This document shows positions 2,136 through 14,230 of a DNA stretch of 29,827 nucleotides, piece by piece (position 1 is the first letter of the stretch; each line of letters starts with the position of its first letter). The translations under genes were made by a program, and so were the position numbers. Source of the stretch: a virus. The notes below the pieces were generated by a model that did not search any database, was not told the DNA's origin, and worked only from the letters and a program-made list of their open reading frames with translations. The stretch spans positions 1 to 29,827 of the IMG/VR virus record IMGVR_UViG_3300046167_000257; one strand, 5' to 3'.

Positions 2136-2444
2136 TTAAAAAGGTAAATCATAATTAACCATAAACCATCTGTCACCATTTGTATGACCTTCGGTATATT
2201 CACCACCAATGTAGTTTGCATACTTCTTAACCCAAATGTTAAACTTCTTTTGTGTTAACCATTTCTTATAATCTTGGTAATCATTCACAAACTGATCATA
2301 CATATTGCGTTTGTTCAATCTAATATTAAACAATTCAGTTCCATCATAATTGCACCACTCATAAAACTCTTGTGATGTTTCACTAATGAATTTACGAAGT
2401 TTGATATTCTTTGCATTGGTTTGTTTAATTAGTTTATGTGTGAA
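2136..2444 (-). CDS. Primase-helicase, C-terminal fragment (frame-shifted)
   Basis: This frame continues the primase-helicase gene after a frame break. The upstream frame ends in CIQLYFHT then TAA at 2434-2436. One nucleotide over, the sequence reads on as HKLIKQTNAKNIKLRK and then FISETSQEFYEWC, a KKWLTQKKFNIWVKKYANY block and NGDRWFMV, which is the usual C-terminal tail (a winged-helix-like module) of Bacteroidota phage primase-helicases. An ATG in this frame exists at 2537, but the residues it would add overlap the upstream gene in another phase and look non-coding, so I place the start of meaningful coding at about 2444. Joining needs a +1 shift or an indel near 2437-2442 (a CACACA tract). 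Whether it is translated separately, by recoding, or not at all cannot be told. Confidence 0.7.
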   Translation of the reverse strand, partial: FTHKLIKQTNAKNIKLRKFISETSQEFYEWCNYDGTELFNIRLNKRNMYDQFVNDYQDYKKWLTQKKFNIWVKKYANYIGGEYTEGHTNGDRWFMVNYDLPF

Positions 2445-4023
2445 AGTATAATTGAATACAACCAACCATGTAATTGTCAAATCTTGCATATTCATCTTCA
2501 TCCCAGTCATCAAATAATGTACGACCAAAATCATCATATGGTGTTAAATCACTATTATAATATTGTGCTACCTCAACTTCATGCCTTCTTCGGTCATGAC
2601 TATTCCCTTCACCTTTGATTGCATAGTTAGTTGATATTAACATTTTTGGTGATTCCTCAACACCAAGTTTGATTGCATCCTTTCCTTTACGTTCTAATGT
2701 TATTCCTTCAGTGACCAAACTAAACTTTGATTCAAAGTCAAAATTCTTCTTGACATCATCAAACACTAATATTTGTGTATCTTGACTTATAGTCTGATAT
2801 GGAAACGATTTCTTATCATCAAATGACTTTCCATCTAATATGCCAACCCTTCTGATTTCTTTTAATCCTTGCACAAATAAACCTTTACCAGTTCCACCTT
2901 CAGGATTGTCACTAATTACTTCATCATTTAATATTATTGCTTTGTTGTCAATCTTATTTTTATAAGTATGTAATAAATAACCAATTGTGCATTCAATAGA
3001 TAATGGTTCACCATTACTTATGTTATTAATAAACTTTTGATAATCATTTTCAATATTGTCAGTTTCATTAAAATCCCTATCAATGATTTGGTTCTTCCAT
3101 ATATACCCATTTACATTGACATACTCATTTAAAAATACTTTGTCCTTTGTAACCTCTAAAATACCATTCCTAAATGCAATAAATGATTTGTGTTGTGTAT
3201 CATTCAACATCATCAGGTCAATTGTTTCAAGTATGGTCAGAAATGAATCAGTAAATAGGTTTTGATAAGTTGCCACATATGAATAAACATCTATCTCATT
3301 ATTGTCCAATAGATAAGATAAAACAAAATCCTTTATTATTTCAGTTGATGTTTCCGATACAATGTTAGACTGTATTTTAACAAACGATGGTTTAAGACTA
3401 TCAGCAAAGAAGAACTTTTTAAATCCATTGCGTTCTAAAAACAATTTATATTTTAAAGGATCTATCTTTATATTCTGCTTCTTATCGTAGTACCAAAAAT
3501 CATCATGTTCTGATTCATGGGATATTTGTTCATATACTTCACCATTTATGTTGTGCAGTTCCTGAACCTTTTCCTTTCCATATTTAAGGTCCTTTTTAAT
3601 ACTATCTATTTTGGACCAATCTTCAAAATACTTACAACCAAATTGTCTGATTCGATATGCACTTTTAATGGTATTAACTAAACTATCATCAATGTAATCT
3701 TCAAAGACTACATTATTTTTTACATAATTAATTGCATTAATTTCCTGAACTCCATATTCACAAAACGCACCACATATATCAAAAACAAAAGAATTTCGTT
3801 CACCAACAACATAATCCTTTTGCCAGTTGAATTTCATTATTAAATCAATCTTCTTAAAGTCATCATTGATTGGAATGGTTGGGATCTTTTCAGCAATTAA
3901 AAAACCATCATCAACCAGCTTTGGATTGTACTGTATAGCTTCATAATTAATATAAATATTTGGATCGTATGATTCGAAACAAACTCGATCAACGTTGCAA
4001 GTAGCAGCATCAAAATAGTCATA
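2434..4023 (-). CDS. Primase-helicase, central SF3/D5-like ATPase part
   Basis: This is the central part of a VirE-N/BT4734-type primase-helicase. Taking the in-frame ATG at 3837 as residue 1, the ATPase core shows Walker A GGTGKG at 314-319, Walker B VFDDV, and an SF3 motif C-like KMLISTN, followed by the DDFGRTLFDDW block typical of this family. The frame is open upstream of that ATG to about 4023 and encodes conserved primase sequence there (CNVDRVCFESYDPN), so the ATG at 3837 is internal and not the real start. The protein would unwind DNA and prime replication. The frame is severed from its N-terminus at 4023-4025 and from its C-terminus at 2434. The three frames together would give about 774 aa, a normal length for the family. 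Confidence 0.8.
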   Translation of the reverse strand, partial: YDYFDAATCNVDRVCFESYDPNIYINYEAIQYNPKLVDDGFLIAEKIPTIPINDDFKKIDLIMKFNWQKDYVVGERNSFVFDICGAFCEYGVQEINAINYVKNNVVFEDYIDDSLVNTIKSAYRIRQFGCKYFEDWSKIDSIKKDLKYGKEKVQELHNINGEVYEQISHESEHDDFWYYDKKQNIKIDPLKYKLFLERNGFKKFFFADSLKPSFVKIQSNIVSETSTEIIKDFVLSYLLDNNEIDVYSYVATYQNLFTDSFLTILETIDLMMLNDTQHKSFIAFRNGILEVTKDKVFLNEYVNVNGYIWKNQIIDRDFNETDNIENDYQKFINNISNGEPLSIECTIGYLLHTYKNKIDNKAIILNDEVISDNPEGGTGKGLFVQGLKEIRRVGILDGKSFDDKKSFPYQTISQDTQILVFDDVKKNFDFESKFSLVTEGITLERKGKDAIKLGVEESPKMLISTNYAIKGEGNSHDRRRHEVEVAQYYNSDLTPYDDFGRTLFDDWDEDEYARFDNYMVGCIQLYFHT

Positions 4024-4460
4024 AAGTGATCCTTATTAAACTGCTTAAAATATTGTTCATGTTCTTTTGCATTGCATTTTGGTATTGAAACAATGGCTTT
4101 GTATCCATTTCTTGATGGTGACATAAATACCGAAACAATATGTTTGTTTTGTTTCAGCTGGTCAAACATCATATCCATCTTATTATTTGGTATTTTATCA
4201 AAGTCCAATACCATTAAACCACTATGTTCTTTTAGTCCTGACTTTTTACGTTGTGTAAATACACCACCAAAGATAATACAAGGTAATTGATTTTTTAATT
4301 TGGAACGTGCATCACCTTCCAATGTCATCATTTTATCAATGATGTGTTTTGACTTTCCTTCCTTTATTCTTTTAAGTGATTGGTCAAGTTGGACATCATA
4401 GGGGACATCCGATGATTTAAAAAGTGATTTAAAGATTGAAATCTTTGTGTTTTTTATCAT
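3897..4460 (-). CDS. Primase-helicase, N-terminal VirE-N/BT4734-like fragment
   Basis: The first 146 residues form a recognisable VirE-N / BT4734-like domain: ISIFKSLFKSSDVPYDV at the start, a KKSGLKEHSGLMVLDFDKI block (the conserved DxDK-type acidic motif of the primase-like fold) and SPSRNGYKAIVSIP. At 4023-4025 the conserved sequence leaves this frame; the remaining 41 codons to the stop at 3897 are hydrophobic and unrelated. The true continuation (YDYFDAATCNVDRVCFESYDP) lies in the frame reached by a -1 shift, as if a TTTT run had become TTT. The start is the ATG at 4458-4460, which has a good Bacteroidota promoter 11-44 nt upstream. Loss of one base by error or mutation is the simplest reading. 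Confidence 0.78.
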   Translation of the reverse strand: MIKNTKISIFKSLFKSSDVPYDVQLDQSLKRIKEGKSKHIIDKMMTLEGDARSKLKNQLPCIIFGGVFTQRKKSGLKEHSGLMVLDFDKIPNNKMDMMFDQLKQNKHIVSVFMSPSRNGYKAIVSIPKCNAKEHEQYFKQFNKDHFMTILMLLLATLIEFVSNHTIQIFILIMKLYSTIQSWLMMVF

Positions 4461-4462
4461 AT

Positions 4463-4471
4463 TGTGGATAC
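4463..4471 (-). promoter_or_regulatory. DnaA-box-like site upstream of primase
   Basis: On the minus strand this reads GTATCCACA, one mismatch (first base) from the DnaA box TTATCCACA. It overlaps the last base of the -7 box and covers the expected transcription start of the primase promoter. The same window encodes a stand-alone DnaA domain IV protein (6697-7122). A single near-match in AT-rich DNA can arise by chance. Confidence 0.35.
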
Positions 4472-4504
4472 AAATTTATAATTTTTATTTTTAGACTAAC
4501 AAAA
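4471..4504 (-). promoter_or_regulatory. Bacteroidota-type promoter for primase operon
   Basis: On the minus strand a TTTTG (-33 element, 4500-4504) is followed by a 21-nt spacer and TAAATTTG (-7 element, 4471-4478), matching the primary sigma consensus of Bacteroidota (TTTG / TAnnTTTG). The primase ATG lies 10 nt after the -7 box, so the leader would be very short. It probably drives the replication operon from primase to the 108-aa protein. Confidence 0.6.
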
Positions 4505-4512
4505 CAAATCCT

Positions 4513-4565
4513 ATGTGTCCTCGTAAAACGCTGATAATCATATGTTTTAACGATTTAGGACACAT
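4513..4565. repeat. Inverted repeat, 9-bp perfect arms
   Basis: ATGTGTCCT at 4513-4521 is perfectly complementary to AGGACACAT at 4557-4565. Inside the arms a second partial match occurs (CGTAAAAC against GTTTTAACG), so the two halves are diverged inverted copies of a motif of about 18-20 nt. A related GCGTCCTAA sits at 4645-4653. It lies between the primase promoter and an 11-C tract, in the longest non-coding stretch of the window. It could be an operator or origin iterons. Confidence 0.55.
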
Positions 4566-4580
4566 TTATTTCCCAAGTGA

Positions 4581-4618
4581 CCCCCCCCCCCTTAAAATGA
4601 ATTTGATTTTTGTGGGGG
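4581..4618. repeat. 11-C homopolymer and hairpin
   Basis: Eleven consecutive C at 4581-4591 are followed by AAAAT (4594-4598), a 7-nt loop, ATTTT (4606-4610) and GGGGG (4614-4618), so CCCCC/GGGGG and AAAAT/ATTTT can pair as a two-part stem with a small internal loop. Nothing else in this AT-rich window resembles it. No T-tract follows on either strand, so it is not a typical terminator. The rest of 4461-4649 holds the promoter and inverted repeat listed separately and no gene I can see. An origin or secondary-structure element is possible; the exact C count should be treated as uncertain. Confidence 0.5.
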
Positions 4619-4649
4619 AGCAATAAGGGAAAAAATCTCAAAACGCGTC

Positions 4650-4808
4650 CTAATTAATAAAATGGTTAATTGCTTTGTCGATTGAACCATATGATTCCAA
4701 AACTTGCCATCCTAAATTCTCGATGTGCTTCTTTGAATAATGATCGTACGTTTCCAATCCTATTGATTGCAAATAAAAATGTCCTAAATCTTCGATTGTA
4801 TATTGCAT
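4650..4808 (-). CDS. Small hypothetical protein, 52 aa
   Basis: A short ORF beginning MQYTIEDLGHFYL and ending IDKAINHFIN; soluble, mildly acidic to neutral, predicted helical, with no domain I recognise. The ATG at 4806-4808 is preferred over an upstream start at 4838, because that one lies inside a strong terminator hairpin (4822-4852). It reads in the same direction as the primase and is separated from it by the structured 4461-4649 stretch. It lies just past the terminator of the preceding gene, so it may depend on readthrough or on its own weak promoter. Small early proteins of this type in phages often modify host functions, but nothing here shows that. Confidence 0.5.
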   Translation of the reverse strand: MQYTIEDLGHFYLQSIGLETYDHYSKKHIENLGWQVLESYGSIDKAINHFIN

Positions 4809-4821
4809 AATGTTATATATT

Positions 4822-4852
4822 AAAAAACCCCTCACCATATGATGAAGGGTTT
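4822..4852 (-). terminator. Rho-independent terminator after the 61-aa gene
   Basis: On the minus strand AAACCCTTCATC (4852-4841), loop ATAT, then GGTGAGGGGTTT (4836-4825) forms a 12-bp stem with two G-T wobbles, followed by a run of T (4827-4822). It lies 10 nt past the stop of the 61-aa gene and should limit transcription into the 52-aa gene and the primase region. Confidence 0.85.
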
Positions 4853-4862
4853 GTGTTAGTTG

Positions 4863-5048
4863 TTATAATTCACTCATTAAGTTCATTAATCTATCCCACT
4901 CATTGTTTAACCTTTCTAATCTTAAATTAATTTTATGATTAGTTTCGCCAATATTTCTATTTCCTAAAGATAAATTTAATCTATGCTCATCTAAATTAAT
5001 TCTTTCTTCAATTGAGATCATTCTGTTGTTAATTTCTTGTAAGTTCAT
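4863..5048 (-). CDS. Small coiled-coil hypothetical protein, 61 aa
   Basis: The protein is highly charged and helical with heptad-like spacing of Leu, Ile and Met (MNLQEINNRMISIEERI to the C-terminal WDRLMNLMSEL), suggesting a small coiled-coil dimer. I recognise no family. The ATG at 5046-5048 is chosen because the longer frame to 5078 would start at a TTG overlapping the -7 promoter box. It is the first gene of the leftward unit, has its own promoter (5076-5107), and is followed 10 nt after its stop by a strong terminator, so it is probably a monocistronic early transcript. Confidence 0.6.
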   Translation of the reverse strand: MNLQEINNRMISIEERINLDEHRLNLSLGNRNIGETNHKINLRLERLNNEWDRLMNLMSEL

Positions 5049-5075
5049 TTTGTTATTGTTTTTATTATTATGATA

Positions 5076-5107
5076 CAAATATAGTATAAAATATTAATAC
5101 AATGCAA
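5076..5107 (-). promoter_or_regulatory. Leftward promoter, TTG-N21-TATATTTG
   Basis: On the minus strand TTG (5107-5105), 21 nt, then TATATTTG (5083-5076) fits the Bacteroidota -33/-7 consensus. The ATG of the 61-aa gene is 27 nt downstream of the box. It faces away from the rightward promoter in the same divergent intergenic region. Confidence 0.55.
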
Positions 5108-5153
5108 GTTTTATTTTATTTTTTTTATTGTAAAATATTTTAATACATTTGCA
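5087..5153 (+). repeat. Imperfect direct repeat in the divergent promoter region
   Basis: TAAAATATTAATACAATGCA (5087-5106) recurs as TAAAATATTTTAATACATTT followed by GCA (5131-5153), with a 2-nt expansion and one substitution. A T-rich run lies between the copies. One copy overlaps the leftward promoter spacer and the other contains the rightward -7 box, so both could be operators for one regulator that coordinates the two divergent units. The repeat is AT-rich, so some of the similarity may be compositional. Confidence 0.4.
5144..5151 (+). promoter_or_regulatory. Rightward -7 box TACATTTG
   Basis: TACATTTG matches TAnnTTTG and lies 17 nt before the ATG of the first plus-strand gene. The -33 position is only T-rich with no clear TTTG, so this promoter may need an activator or be weak. 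It is the only candidate seen for the ten-gene plus-strand operon. Confidence 0.4.
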
Positions 5154-5168
5154 GTTCAATATAACACA

Positions 5169-5315
5169 ATGAAAAAAAATATTATTATCTACTTCGCAAC
5201 ATACCTACCATTCAGCTTGGTATTGTTTGCCCTTAATTATTCAGTCATTGCAACAATTTTCTTTGTCATTGGCATTGTTTCACTTTTAGAATATTACAGT
5301 CATGACAGAATATGA
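5169..5315 (+). CDS. Small membrane protein, 48 aa
   Basis: Starting MKKNIIIYFATYLPF, this protein is almost entirely hydrophobic, with two likely transmembrane helices (about residues 4-22 and 26-41) and a short polar C-terminus (EYYSHDRI). It is the first gene after the divergent promoter region, and its last bases overlap the next ORF by 14 nt. Two short helices and small size resemble holin-like or superinfection-type membrane proteins, but there is no family motif, so function is unknown. Its early position argues against a lysis timer. Confidence 0.6.
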   Translation: MKKNIIIYFATYLPFSLVLFALNYSVIATIFFVIGIVSLLEYYSHDRI

Positions 5316-5472
5316 AAAATCACAACTTCGTTTATTAGTTTATGATAAACTTGATGAACTACAAAAAATGCACGTTGAATATTATAATGATGATGAAGAA
5401 CATTATTCACCAGCTTTAAGAATAGAATCAAAAATCAGAGAATATCAAACCATATTGGAAAAACTTAAATGA
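5302..5472 (+). CDS. Small hypothetical protein, 56 aa
   Basis: The ORF runs MTEYEKSQLRLLVYDKL to TILEKLK; it is highly charged and helical, with an acidic middle (NDDEEH). It overlaps the upstream membrane protein gene by 14 nt and the next gene by 4 nt (ATGA), which supports translational coupling and genuine coding. No family is recognised. Its charge and helical periodicity suggest a coiled-coil or binding role in early infection. Confidence 0.6.
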   Translation: MTEYEKSQLRLLVYDKLDELQKMHVEYYNDDEEHYSPALRIESKIREYQTILEKLK

Positions 5473-5732
5473 AATTTCAAAACACAATATCAAACGAACT
5501 TAAAGACATTTTAAAGTGTTGCACAACTGTTCCTGAACGAATAAAGATTGCAGAGAAACACAACATATCAATCCACACACTTAATAGTGTGCTGGAGGGT
5601 AAACGAAATATCACATACAATAATCACGATGCAATACTTGAACTACTTGCACAGGCAATAAGCAATGCAAAGTCTTTTCATATGTCATTGATTGATTATT
5701 TTCACGAAACAAAATACATTAAATTTATATAA
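5469..5732 (+). CDS. Small putative DNA-binding protein, 87 aa
   Basis: The sequence begins MKFQNTISNELKDIL and contains a possible helix-turn-helix-like segment around residues 22-45 (PERIKIAEKHNISIHTLNSVL), where the pattern 'RIKIAEKHNIS..TLNSVLEGKR' resembles a recognition helix arrangement. This is suggestive only. It overlaps the upstream gene by 4 nt (ATGA) and is followed one base later by the ssDNA-binding-like gene. If it binds DNA it is the best candidate in the window for a regulator of the divergent promoter region, though the gene is downstream and not beside the operator. Confidence 0.5.
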   Translation: MKFQNTISNELKDILKCCTTVPERIKIAEKHNISIHTLNSVLEGKRNITYNNHDAILELLAQAISNAKSFHMSLIDYFHETKYIKFI

Positions 5733-6327: not shown

Positions 6328-6700
6328 CGATATAGCAAACAATGTAATTCAGGGGATGACCGATCCCCTGATTGCATATGCAGAACTTAAAGAATACAAA
6401 CGTGATATTGACCAAGCAATCAAGGACATTGAACCAATTGCATTGGAGGAATCAGAGAAATACGGCAAATCCTTTGAACTGCATGGAATTAAATTTGAAC
6501 GAAGAAATGGATCAACACGCTATGACTTTAAGCATATTGAACAATGGCAAATGATGCACCAAGAACTAAAGAACTTTGAAATGCAATCTAAACAAGCACT
6601 TGCAGCAATGAAGCATGGTGCAAATTATATTGATGAGAATGGTGAGCAAATCCCAGTTCCAAAAATAACTTACACAAAAGATTCACTTATAACAAAATGA
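6308..6700 (+). CDS. Hypothetical phage protein, 130 aa
   Basis: This is a helical, charged protein with a central YGKSFELHGIKFERRNGSTR block and a following YDFKHIEQWQMMHQELKNFE stretch. I have an impression of this pattern from other Bacteroidota phages, where it lies beside the ssDNA-binding-like gene, but no function is known to me. It overlaps the previous gene by 20 nt and the DnaA-like gene by 4 nt (ATGA), so it is translationally coupled to both. A role as accessory factor in replication or recombination is inference from neighbours only. Confidence 0.6.
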   Translation: MKTSHFNDIANNVIQGMTDPLIAYAELKEYKRDIDQAIKDIEPIALEESEKYGKSFELHGIKFERRNGSTRYDFKHIEQWQMMHQELKNFEMQSKQALAAMKHGANYIDENGEQIPVPKITYTKDSLITK

Positions 6701-7122
6701 AAAACATACACCCCTATTTAATACCAGCCTTTGATGTTTACGAAATCAATAAACAATTGTCTGACTACACAACACCTGATGCAATCAAATATCAGGTTGC
6801 AAAGTATTATTCAAAGAAATCAATTATCAAAGTGTTGTATGGTCAATTGACTGCAAACGATATGCAAGAAATTATCTTGTCAAAGACACGTAAACAAGAA
6901 ATCATTCGACCACGTTACACAACAATTTATTTTTTGCGTAATATATTAAACCTTAAACTTGCAACCATTGGTAAAATTATGGGATTTCGTGACCACTCAA
7001 CAATTATACACGCTTTAAAGAGTTATGAAAGTTGGTGTGAATATGATAAACCATTGTTCGAAGATCACATTCAAATGTGTTCATTGTTTAAAGTACCCAA
7101 CCGAATCCAGTTCCAAAGATGA
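6697..7122 (+). CDS. Stand-alone DnaA domain IV protein, 141 aa
   Basis: Residues 70-110 match the C-terminal DNA-binding domain of DnaA: an IRPRYTTIYFLRNIL helix, LATIGKIMGF, and the signature RDHSTIIHALKSY (98-110), the helix that reads DnaA boxes. There is no AAA+ module (no Walker A), so it cannot form an ATP-dependent DnaA filament. The N-terminal half (DVYEINKQLSDY..) is not recognised. Such phage proteins probably bind DnaA boxes at the phage origin or compete with host DnaA. A DnaA-box-like site lies upstream of the primase at 4463-4471. It overlaps both neighbours by 4 nt. Domain call firm; role inferred. Confidence 0.82.
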   Translation: MKNIHPYLIPAFDVYEINKQLSDYTTPDAIKYQVAKYYSKKSIIKVLYGQLTANDMQEIILSKTRKQEIIRPRYTTIYFLRNILNLKLATIGKIMGFRDHSTIIHALKSYESWCEYDKPLFEDHIQMCSLFKVPNRIQFQR

Positions 7123-12299: not shown

Positions 12300-14230
12300 T
12301 ATAGTATTATATAGTTATAAAAGTTAGCTAAATTATTAAAACTCAAGTTTACCTGACCAGTCAAATCCGATAGCTCCTCATCACTTAATGCTTCGTTAAA
12401 AGTCATTAGTTGTTTTGTTTTGCCGTAGAAGTCTAATGCACCATCACCTCTATCAAACGCTAATTCTGATAAACCAACTGGAGCAAGTCCACTTGTATCG
12501 GTTGCAACCTCAACACCATTTACCCATAGTGCAAAGTCGTTAGCTTTATATTTAATTGCTATTTTATTATAATCTGTATCATTTGATAAGATTGTAGTTG
12601 TAAAAAATTGAGCAACATTGCCAGAATAAACCGCAACCGCTAATCCATTAGTAGCAGAATAATACCACAATGAAATTCTATTTACAGCAGTTCCATCGGA
12701 AACGCTCAAAAATCTTTCATTAGAATCATCCGCCAACGCTGCTATCTCTGCAAATAAAACCCCCTCCGTACTATTAAACGTCGCAGCAGTCCCAGCATTG
12801 TTGCAGACATCGGCGGTTCGAGTTGTTGTGCTTCCGTTGGTTGGTATGTAGGATGTTAAATAGTTGCCTTGCTCTAATTGTGCTCCCCACATATATATAC
12901 CGCTTGATGGTATATCATCAATCCAAAGACCTTGAGTACTTGAATGTGTGTTATCTTCTATAAGGTCAAATCTTTGCCATTCTGTTGTAACCGACAAACT
13001 TTTTTGTGTAACTGTAAAGATAGGGTCTTTTAAAGTTACATTAACTGTACCGCTTACGCTTTTTAAATAAACAGACCTTGCCACAACTCCAGTAACTGAA
13101 GCACTTTTTAATACTCCTGAAGTTCCGTTACCTACAAACTTTGTTGCGTTATTTGTTCCGTCAGGGCTTAATGTCTCAGTAGTGTTGTGAGTTGCAGTAA
13201 CACCGCTTTGTATTGTCCATTGAGAAAAATCAGTTGAGTAGTTTAATAAATTAGTCCTCTGAGGCTCCAGCAATAAACTCGCACAACTTGCCCCATAATC
13301 CAAGCGAGGAACGTCGTTTTCAATGTATTGTATAACTGATATGCTATTAATAACCGAACCAGTACTTGAAGAATAGCCATTGTTAAAACCTACAAAAGTA
13401 TTGCTCGTTCCGCCAACTGCCTCAATTGTTTGAACACCTACCGATAATGCGTATTGATTGCCACCAAAATATAATTGCGTTGCTCCGTCTAAACTTGCAA
13501 CATCAACAACAACCTTATAATATTTATTTGCAGTAACTACACCACCTTGATAAGCAAGTCCACCGCTTGTTTTGGTTAGTTGTCCACCAGATATACTTGC
13601 AGAGCCGCTCCAATCACTATCCGTTGCAAAATCCCCGTTTGTTACTTCTTCCGTTGTACCCAAAACTTTTGCAACCTCAATCAACCCCTCACTATTTACC
13701 CTTGTTGCACTTGATGAACGTGAGAAATCAAAGTCGCCTATGTTTGTTACTTCTTTTACTGATACGTTGTCTATTGAGAAATCAGCAGTACCATTTGTGT
13801 AATAACTTGATAAATAAACTGCCAATACAGAATTAGTTGCTGTGTGATAATAAGTGAAAGTTTCAAAGTCAGAAGAATTGCCACTATCAACATCTATATA
13901 AACTCCATTAAGTAATCTTAATCTATAAAAATTAGAATCATTTGACTTTAAAGAAGTAGTTATTTTGTATGTCTTACCAACAATAACATTTATGTTTTGA
14001 GATATTCTATTATTGAAATTACTTGCTAAACCTTGAATTGTTGCAACTCCACTTGTTACAGTAAAAGAAGTAACTTCTGTACCAGCGTTCCAATTATTTG
14101 TTCCATCACTAAAATCCCCATTAGTAACCAACTCACTCCCAAATGTTGGGTTAGGCTTTACCGAGTATAGCTTTCCGTTTTTATATCCGCTTGGTATTTG
14201 TATTAAACTTGCTTTGTCTAATATGCTCAT
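12299..14230 (-). CDS. Lectin/CBM-like tail protein, 643 aa
   Basis: A larger paralogue of the downstream 572-aa protein. Three module openings are visible: VTNGDFSDGTNNW near residue 34, VTNGDFATDSDW near residue 197, and NYSTDFSQW near residue 335. There are also SRSSSATRVNSEGLIE, PRLDYGASCASLLLEPQRTN, SPDGTNNATK and GNYLTSYIPTNGS motifs, then a LamG-like C-terminus with KANDFALWVNGVEV and LSDEELSDLTG. These mirror the 572-aa protein. The role is probably binding of host glycans at the tail or capsid surface. The start codon overlaps the stop of the 50-aa gene. No catalytic motif is evident, so I see binding rather than depolymerase activity. Confidence 0.7.
   Translation of the reverse strand: MSILDKASLIQIPSGYKNGKLYSVKPNPTFGSELVTNGDFSDGTNNWNAGTEVTSFTVTSGVATIQGLASNFNNRISQNINVIVGKTYKITTSLKSNDSNFYRLRLLNGVYIDVDSGNSSDFETFTYYHTATNSVLAVYLSSYYTNGTADFSIDNVSVKEVTNIGDFDFSRSSSATRVNSEGLIEVAKVLGTTEEVTNGDFATDSDWSGSASISGGQLTKTSGGLAYQGGVVTANKYYKVVVDVASLDGATQLYFGGNQYALSVGVQTIEAVGGTSNTFVGFNNGYSSSTGSVINSISVIQYIENDVPRLDYGASCASLLLEPQRTNLLNYSTDFSQWTIQSGVTATHNTTETLSPDGTNNATKFVGNGTSGVLKSASVTGVVARSVYLKSVSGTVNVTLKDPIFTVTQKSLSVTTEWQRFDLIEDNTHSSTQGLWIDDIPSSGIYMWGAQLEQGNYLTSYIPTNGSTTTRTADVCNNAGTAATFNSTEGVLFAEIAALADDSNERFLSVSDGTAVNRISLWYYSATNGLAVAVYSGNVAQFFTTTILSNDTDYNKIAIKYKANDFALWVNGVEVATDTSGLAPVGLSELAFDRGDGALDFYGKTKQLMTFNEALSDEELSDLTGQVNLSFNNLANFYNYIIL

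Follow-up and report, generated by a model that had tools for sequence, protein, structure and literature searches.

Several described replicons couple a single primase-helicase to short repeats or to a structured DNA element located near its gene. The alpha protein of P4, whose primase domain is of the TOPRIM type, binds repeats of its origin via a winged helix (PMC4234260), and the origins of PICIs always contain two sets of iterons flanking an AT-rich stretch (PMC6092414). ORF904 of the Sulfolobus plasmid pRN1, which combines an AEP primase, an SF3 helicase and a winged helix, has been proposed to assemble at a stem-loop (PMC4234260). In plasmids of the pRN family, a long C tract likewise precedes the promoter of the replication operon; it is dispensable in pRN1 (PMC4234260). 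To judge from the literature searched, few origins of Bacteroidota phages have been characterised, and BT4734-like primases recur in mobile elements of Bacteroidota. We describe here a conserved element beside such a primase gene and compare it with these systems.

The stretch of DNA analysed, hereafter the window, comprises the 29,827 bases of a virus record (IMGVR_UViG_3300046167_000257) and has a GC content of about 34%. Its positions 1 and 29827 adjoin in relatives, and a related contig, G001, spans this junction with only about 13 extra bases, so that the window corresponds to a nearly whole, circularly mapping genome; the record is classed as linear. G001 itself (33,988 bases) maps around the circle once, and since its two ends, which overlap by 3.35 kb, match at only 92% identity, it seems to be a chimeric assembly of two strains. 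Relatives were retrieved via the DnaA-C protein, a 21-base block of the element and the primase, and conservation was evaluated in the 22 contigs, including the window, that cover the element (21 distinct sequences). Close relatives were found neither in phage DNA records nor, with the patterns used, as prophages in bacterial genomes. Positions 4850-5060, between a small ORF and a divergent promoter region, form a highly variable gene slot whose content differs among close relatives.

The helicase domain of the primase-helicase encoded next to the element (Table 1) corresponds to DUF5906 (D5/SF3-like). The protein is intact in relatives (774 aa), and the copy in the window is split by two single-base frameshifts, for which sequencing error and a broken copy are indistinguishable. 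In a structure model made from 27 sequences (mean pLDDT 70), the C-terminal end has the order helix-helix-helix-strand-strand, which, read from the secondary structure of the model, resembles a winged-helix arrangement. The best PDB matches of the model by Foldseek were the primase-helicase of SaPI5, followed by those of ASFV and poxviruses, in a partial alignment with a TM of approximately 0.35 by query length. Pfam, the model and Foldseek together thus predict that an initiator-type protein with primase, helicase and C-terminal DNA-binding domains is encoded directly beside the site.

The element itself is bounded by the start codon of the primase at 4460 on the minus strand and, on the other side, by a small ORF of the same strand whose end is at 4650. 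Its mean pairwise diversity was 0.0535, with 83% of the sites invariant, compared to 0.19 at 4-fold sites in the 5' part of the primase gene and 0.23-0.30 at those of two other genes (130-aa and DnaA-C); in other words, positions 4461-4649 have evolved approximately four times more slowly than the silent sites of the adjoining primase gene in the 22 related contigs. Conservation extends to a promoter box, TAnnTTTG, that precedes the ATG by a few bases, to three GGACACAT-type sites, to TGATWATCA, to the C tract with a GGGG facing it, and to GGGAAAAAA. An exact 21-mer block of the element occurs once per contig and is confined to this group. In the relative L053 (primase 85% identical), the upstream gene has been exchanged and a terminator abuts the element, whereas every part of the element is kept. 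Judged from these alignments, the stretch is a conserved non-coding element, and since it is retained beside a replaced neighbour, it is a unit of its own that is unlikely to act as part of an upstream transcript. The preliminary description had named absence of repeat conservation among relatives as an argument against its proposal; on the contrary, the repeats are conserved.

Table 1. Coordinates of the element, its parts and the two proteins considered as binders (positions in the window).
Feature	Position	Strand	Basis or remark
Primase-helicase gene (BT4734-like AEP primase, SF3/D5-like helicase, C-terminal winged-helix-like domain)	2136..4460	-	Pfam PF08800, PF19263
Conserved non-coding element, candidate initiator-binding origin / operator	4461..4653		Low diversity; kept with other upstream gene
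Near-DnaA box GTATCCACA	4463..4471	-	At predicted transcription start; judged no functional DnaA box
-7 promoter box TAAATTTG of primase gene	4471..4478	-	Sequence; -33-like TTTG at 4500-4503 (or 4505-4508)
Site 3, GGACACAT	4513..4520	-	Invariant in 22/22 contigs
Dyad TGATAATCA (TGATWATCA)	4532..4540		Conserved among relatives
Site 2, GGACACAT	4558..4565	+	Inverted relative to sites 1 and 3; one change in 2/21 distinct sequences
C11 tract	4581..4591		Length 8-11, usually C10, in 22 contigs
GGGGG facing the C tract	4614..4618		Core of a conserved but weak stem-loop with AAAA/TTTT; no covariation support
GGGAAAAAA block	4627..4635		Invariant in close group
Site 1, GGACGCGT (GGACACAT in L053)	4643..4650	-	Could close a 97-nt stem-loop with site 2
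DnaA-domain-IV protein (PF08299)	6697..7122	+	Possible accessory factor; unsupported as binder of the element

The promoter motifs named in the preliminary description are in the sequence: the Bacteroidota -7 consensus is TAHHTTTG, 4-5 nt from the start site (PMC6847099), and the window has TAAATTTG at a spacing of 21 bp from the upstream TTTG, varying between TAAATTTG and TACATTTG in the group and reading TAATTTTG in L053. The three GGACACAT-type sites are located 35 to 170 bp upstream of this box in alternating orientation, neither regularly nor at 11-bp spacing; the C tract lies between site 1 and sites 2/3, with an AT-rich stretch off to one side. The inverted repeat reported earlier (ATGTGTCCT at 4513-4521 and AGGACACAT at 4557-4565) does have perfect arms of 9 bp, but by itself it is no better than chance, as arms of at least 9 appeared in 31 of 300 shuffles of the region. 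It gains meaning from its conservation: one arm has an invariant ATGTGTCC, and the second arm is altered at one position in two of the 21 distinct sequences. The third related copy, GCGTCCTAA, exists as well, although at 4645-4653, i.e. ending 4 bases beyond the region originally delimited and overlapping the stop codon of the next ORF. The run of 11 C, also noted before, is the sole C/G run of at least 8 in the window and is beyond chance (runs of at least 10 in 2 of 200 shuffles); it is retained in all 22 contigs. As for the CCCCC/GGGGG hairpin, pairing of the facing GGGGG with the C run is feasible, but the resulting stem-loop is weak and lacks covariation support.

The possibility that structure rather than linear sequence is read here was considered in two forms. 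In the first, similar to pRN1, a stem-loop of 97 nt, closed by sites 1 and 2 and with the CCCCC/GGGGG hairpin inside it, would be extruded and recognized as such by the primase-helicase. A helix of 12 bp can indeed form between sites 1 and 2; almost every pair is kept, and G-U/A-U swaps are tolerated. In addition, pRN1, which has the same enzyme architecture and a C17 tract of unexplained role ahead of its replication operon, needs a stem-loop of 100 nt (PMC4234260). On the other hand, it is the sequence that is conserved rather than the structure: the outer stem has no compensatory two-sided changes, the covariation term is approximately zero, inner pairs are broken in many sequences, and site 3 is as good a partner for site 2 as site 1 is. 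Moreover, pRN1 has its stem-loop 3' of the gene, and it still replicates when the C tract is deleted (PMC4234260). The phage system shares with pRN1 the protein domains and a poly-C tract upstream of the promoter, but its repeats are conserved in sequence and its stem-loop lacks covariation support. We regard this form as quite improbable. In the second, the two helices (site 1 with 2, site 2 with 3), which are mutually exclusive and individually conserved, would act as alternative hairpins of an RNA leader or attenuator regulating read-through transcription into the primase. The terminator just upstream of the element in L053, the primase's own promoter downstream of the hairpins and the lack of covariation all speak against such a leader, to which we assign hardly any weight; in a search of Rfam, no family reached threshold or came near a gathering score.

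A DnaA-based explanation was prompted by the near-DnaA box and by the DnaA-domain-IV protein of the phage, which was suggested to bind the element. This protein keeps the box-reading signature (RDHST), and a PF08299 match was found in 30/30 primase-bearing virus records searched (27 above the curated cut-off); the encoding of a DnaA domain IV protein recalls bacterial oriC and other DnaA-box origins. However, GTATCCACA is not conserved, being replaced by GTAACCACA, GTAGCCACA, GCAATCACA or GCAATCTACA in relatives; it is the one near-box of the window, against 14 expected by shuffling, and neither a canonical DnaA box in the 29,827 bases nor a cluster of conserved boxes was found. Unlike DnaA-box origins, the element has GGACACAT as its repeat, and two plasmids with related iterons, described below, have no gene for a PF08299 protein. 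The proposed binding of the element by the 6697-7122 protein was therefore not borne out, and an origin or control site dependent on it is very improbable; in the simplest reading, this protein has an accessory role or its site of action lies elsewhere. The structure model of DnaA-C was too poor for use. The scarcity of near-boxes was not taken as avoidance of DnaA boxes, as it was inconsistent in relatives when compared with composition-matched permutations. In summary of these three readings, the RNA leader, the pRN1-type stem-loop and the DnaA origin are less likely because of the terminator in L053, the lack of covariation support and the lack of boxes, respectively.

More distant homologues proved informative on the repeats. 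Most primase homologues of approximately 40% identity sit in podophage contigs of about 60 kb, of which MW202828 is a complete example. Upstream of their primase genes, TGATNATCA was enriched 24-fold, and YRACAY repeats with a period of 11 bp were observed as 36 pairs at 22 of 43 loci, compared to 0.06 pairs expected as estimated from the rest of the loci. In these contigs (L060-L119) the 11-bp iterons reach the start codon, and each contig has 1-2 DnaA-domain-IV genes. The same primase-helicase, at 32-34% identity, is also encoded by pSR14 and pSR31, circular plasmids of Salinibacter ruber that carry terminase genes as well. Directly 3' of the primase-helicase gene, both have iterons of 10-11 bp in two opposed sets (TGGTCCAGGGG and GGGTGGGACACC in pSR14, GTGTCACAGGG and TGTGACACCCC in pSR31), with the opposed set approximately 200-300 bp beyond the first; the regions are L158:4752-5108 and L160:2405-2740, respectively. 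Neither plasmid encodes DnaA-C (PF08299). These opposed iteron regions are likely the origins of plasmid-prophages.

When all 5-mers were compared across the four sets, the top three were G/C-rich (C tract, terminators and iteron spacers) and the next was GACAC/GTGTC, the core of GGACACAT in the window; since the motif had already caught attention when the comparison was run, and the loci of any one group are related rather than independent, this result is supportive and not a formal test. The suggestion that the YGYGTCCT copies may be iterons is supported in so far as the core they match, GACAC/GTGTC, reappears in true 11-bp iterons next to this primase-helicase, both in distant phages and in plasmids. 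The phages Leef_1, elemo and Panino were set aside as comparators, having only partial primase similarity; elemo and Panino have a separate annotated initiator, and no comparable repeat array was seen in Leef_1. A Persicobacter plasmid had no clear iterons.

Taking these results together, the reading that we favour, and hold to be probable though well short of certain, is that the element is an initiator-binding origin, which would probably double as an autoregulatory operator of the primase operon. The primase-helicase would be the likelier binder of the repeats rather than DnaA-C, because the plasmids with iterons lack the latter. Its C-terminal winged-helix domain would bind the GACAC/GTGTC-core copies, that is, the three GGACACAT-type sites around the TGATWATCA dyad, and this binding would load the helicase ring; the assembled helicase may then melt the neighbouring AT-rich, promoter-proximal DNA, where priming and replication would begin, and occupation of the same sites would probably also tune transcription of the primase operon. 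Of the earlier proposal of an origin or master control site, a replication-linked control element beside the primase stands on the constraint and the recurring core, whereas its being an origin, with replication starting there, is what we infer.

The main rival is an operator with a promoter and no origin function, in which a phage regulator, or an autorepressing primase-helicase, would bind at the GGACACAT sites and the dyad to time primase expression, and the origin would lie elsewhere. The conserved Bacteroidota promoter directly between the sites and the ATG, as well as the operator-like TGATWATCA dyad and alternating sites, agree with it; the window has just three sites, not spaced at 11 bp, and in both phage groups, including the 60-kb phages with iterons reaching the start codon, the sites are at the promoter or start codon as operators are. 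However, the plasmids carry the same core 3' of the gene, at a distance from its promoter and arranged as two opposed sets, as is typical of origins, and a similar repeat cluster was not seen in the divergent promoter region 5060-5480. We consider a pure operator a serious possibility but rather unlikely.

If the element is an initiator-binding origin, it is probably, by analogy, of the initiator-iteron kind of P4 and PICI. Like P4 alpha with its ori repeats and the pri-rep-ori modules of PICI/SaPI, it has a single primase-helicase with a C-terminal DNA-binding domain (predicted here), short repeats beside the gene and an AT-rich stretch; the best structural match of the phage primase is that of SaPI5, and the two iteron sets of PICI origins resemble the opposed sets of pSR14 and pSR31. 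The differences are that the phage primase belongs to the BT4734-like AEP family rather than being of the TOPRIM type as in P4 (PMC4234260), and that the element, located on the 5' side of the gene, overlaps the promoter and has only three sites and a C10 tract. A repeat core common to phages and small plasmids, next to the same enzyme in each, offers a concrete and testable candidate for an initiator-origin pair and points to a compact replicon that could serve as a basis for genetic tools. Current origin models do not account for a conserved C10 tract where the GC content of the genome is about 34%. As a speculative extension, there may be a replicon family of Bacteroidota phages and Rhodothermota plasmids in which a BT4734-like AEP primase-SF3 helicase reads its own GACAC-core iterons, with the phage origin condensed to a promoter-embedded module whose strictly conserved C10/G10 tract participates in melting or priming, e.g. 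by trapping an R-loop or hairpin. If this were true, such a role would also give a function to the unexplained C17 tract of pRN1.

The cumulative GC skew, proposed earlier as a check, did place a minimum near the element, consistent with an origin there, but turned out to be uninformative because it follows gene direction. Over the nearly complete circle, the detrended skew had its minimum at 3864 and its maximum at 13264. Because transcription switches direction (divergently) at approximately 5.1 kb, near the minimum, the skew does not separate an origin from gene orientation, and in the complete MW202828 it likewise follows the transcription switch. The third-position skew of leftward genes was -0.16, -0.025 and -0.115 in three arcs, a weak trend in the expected direction.
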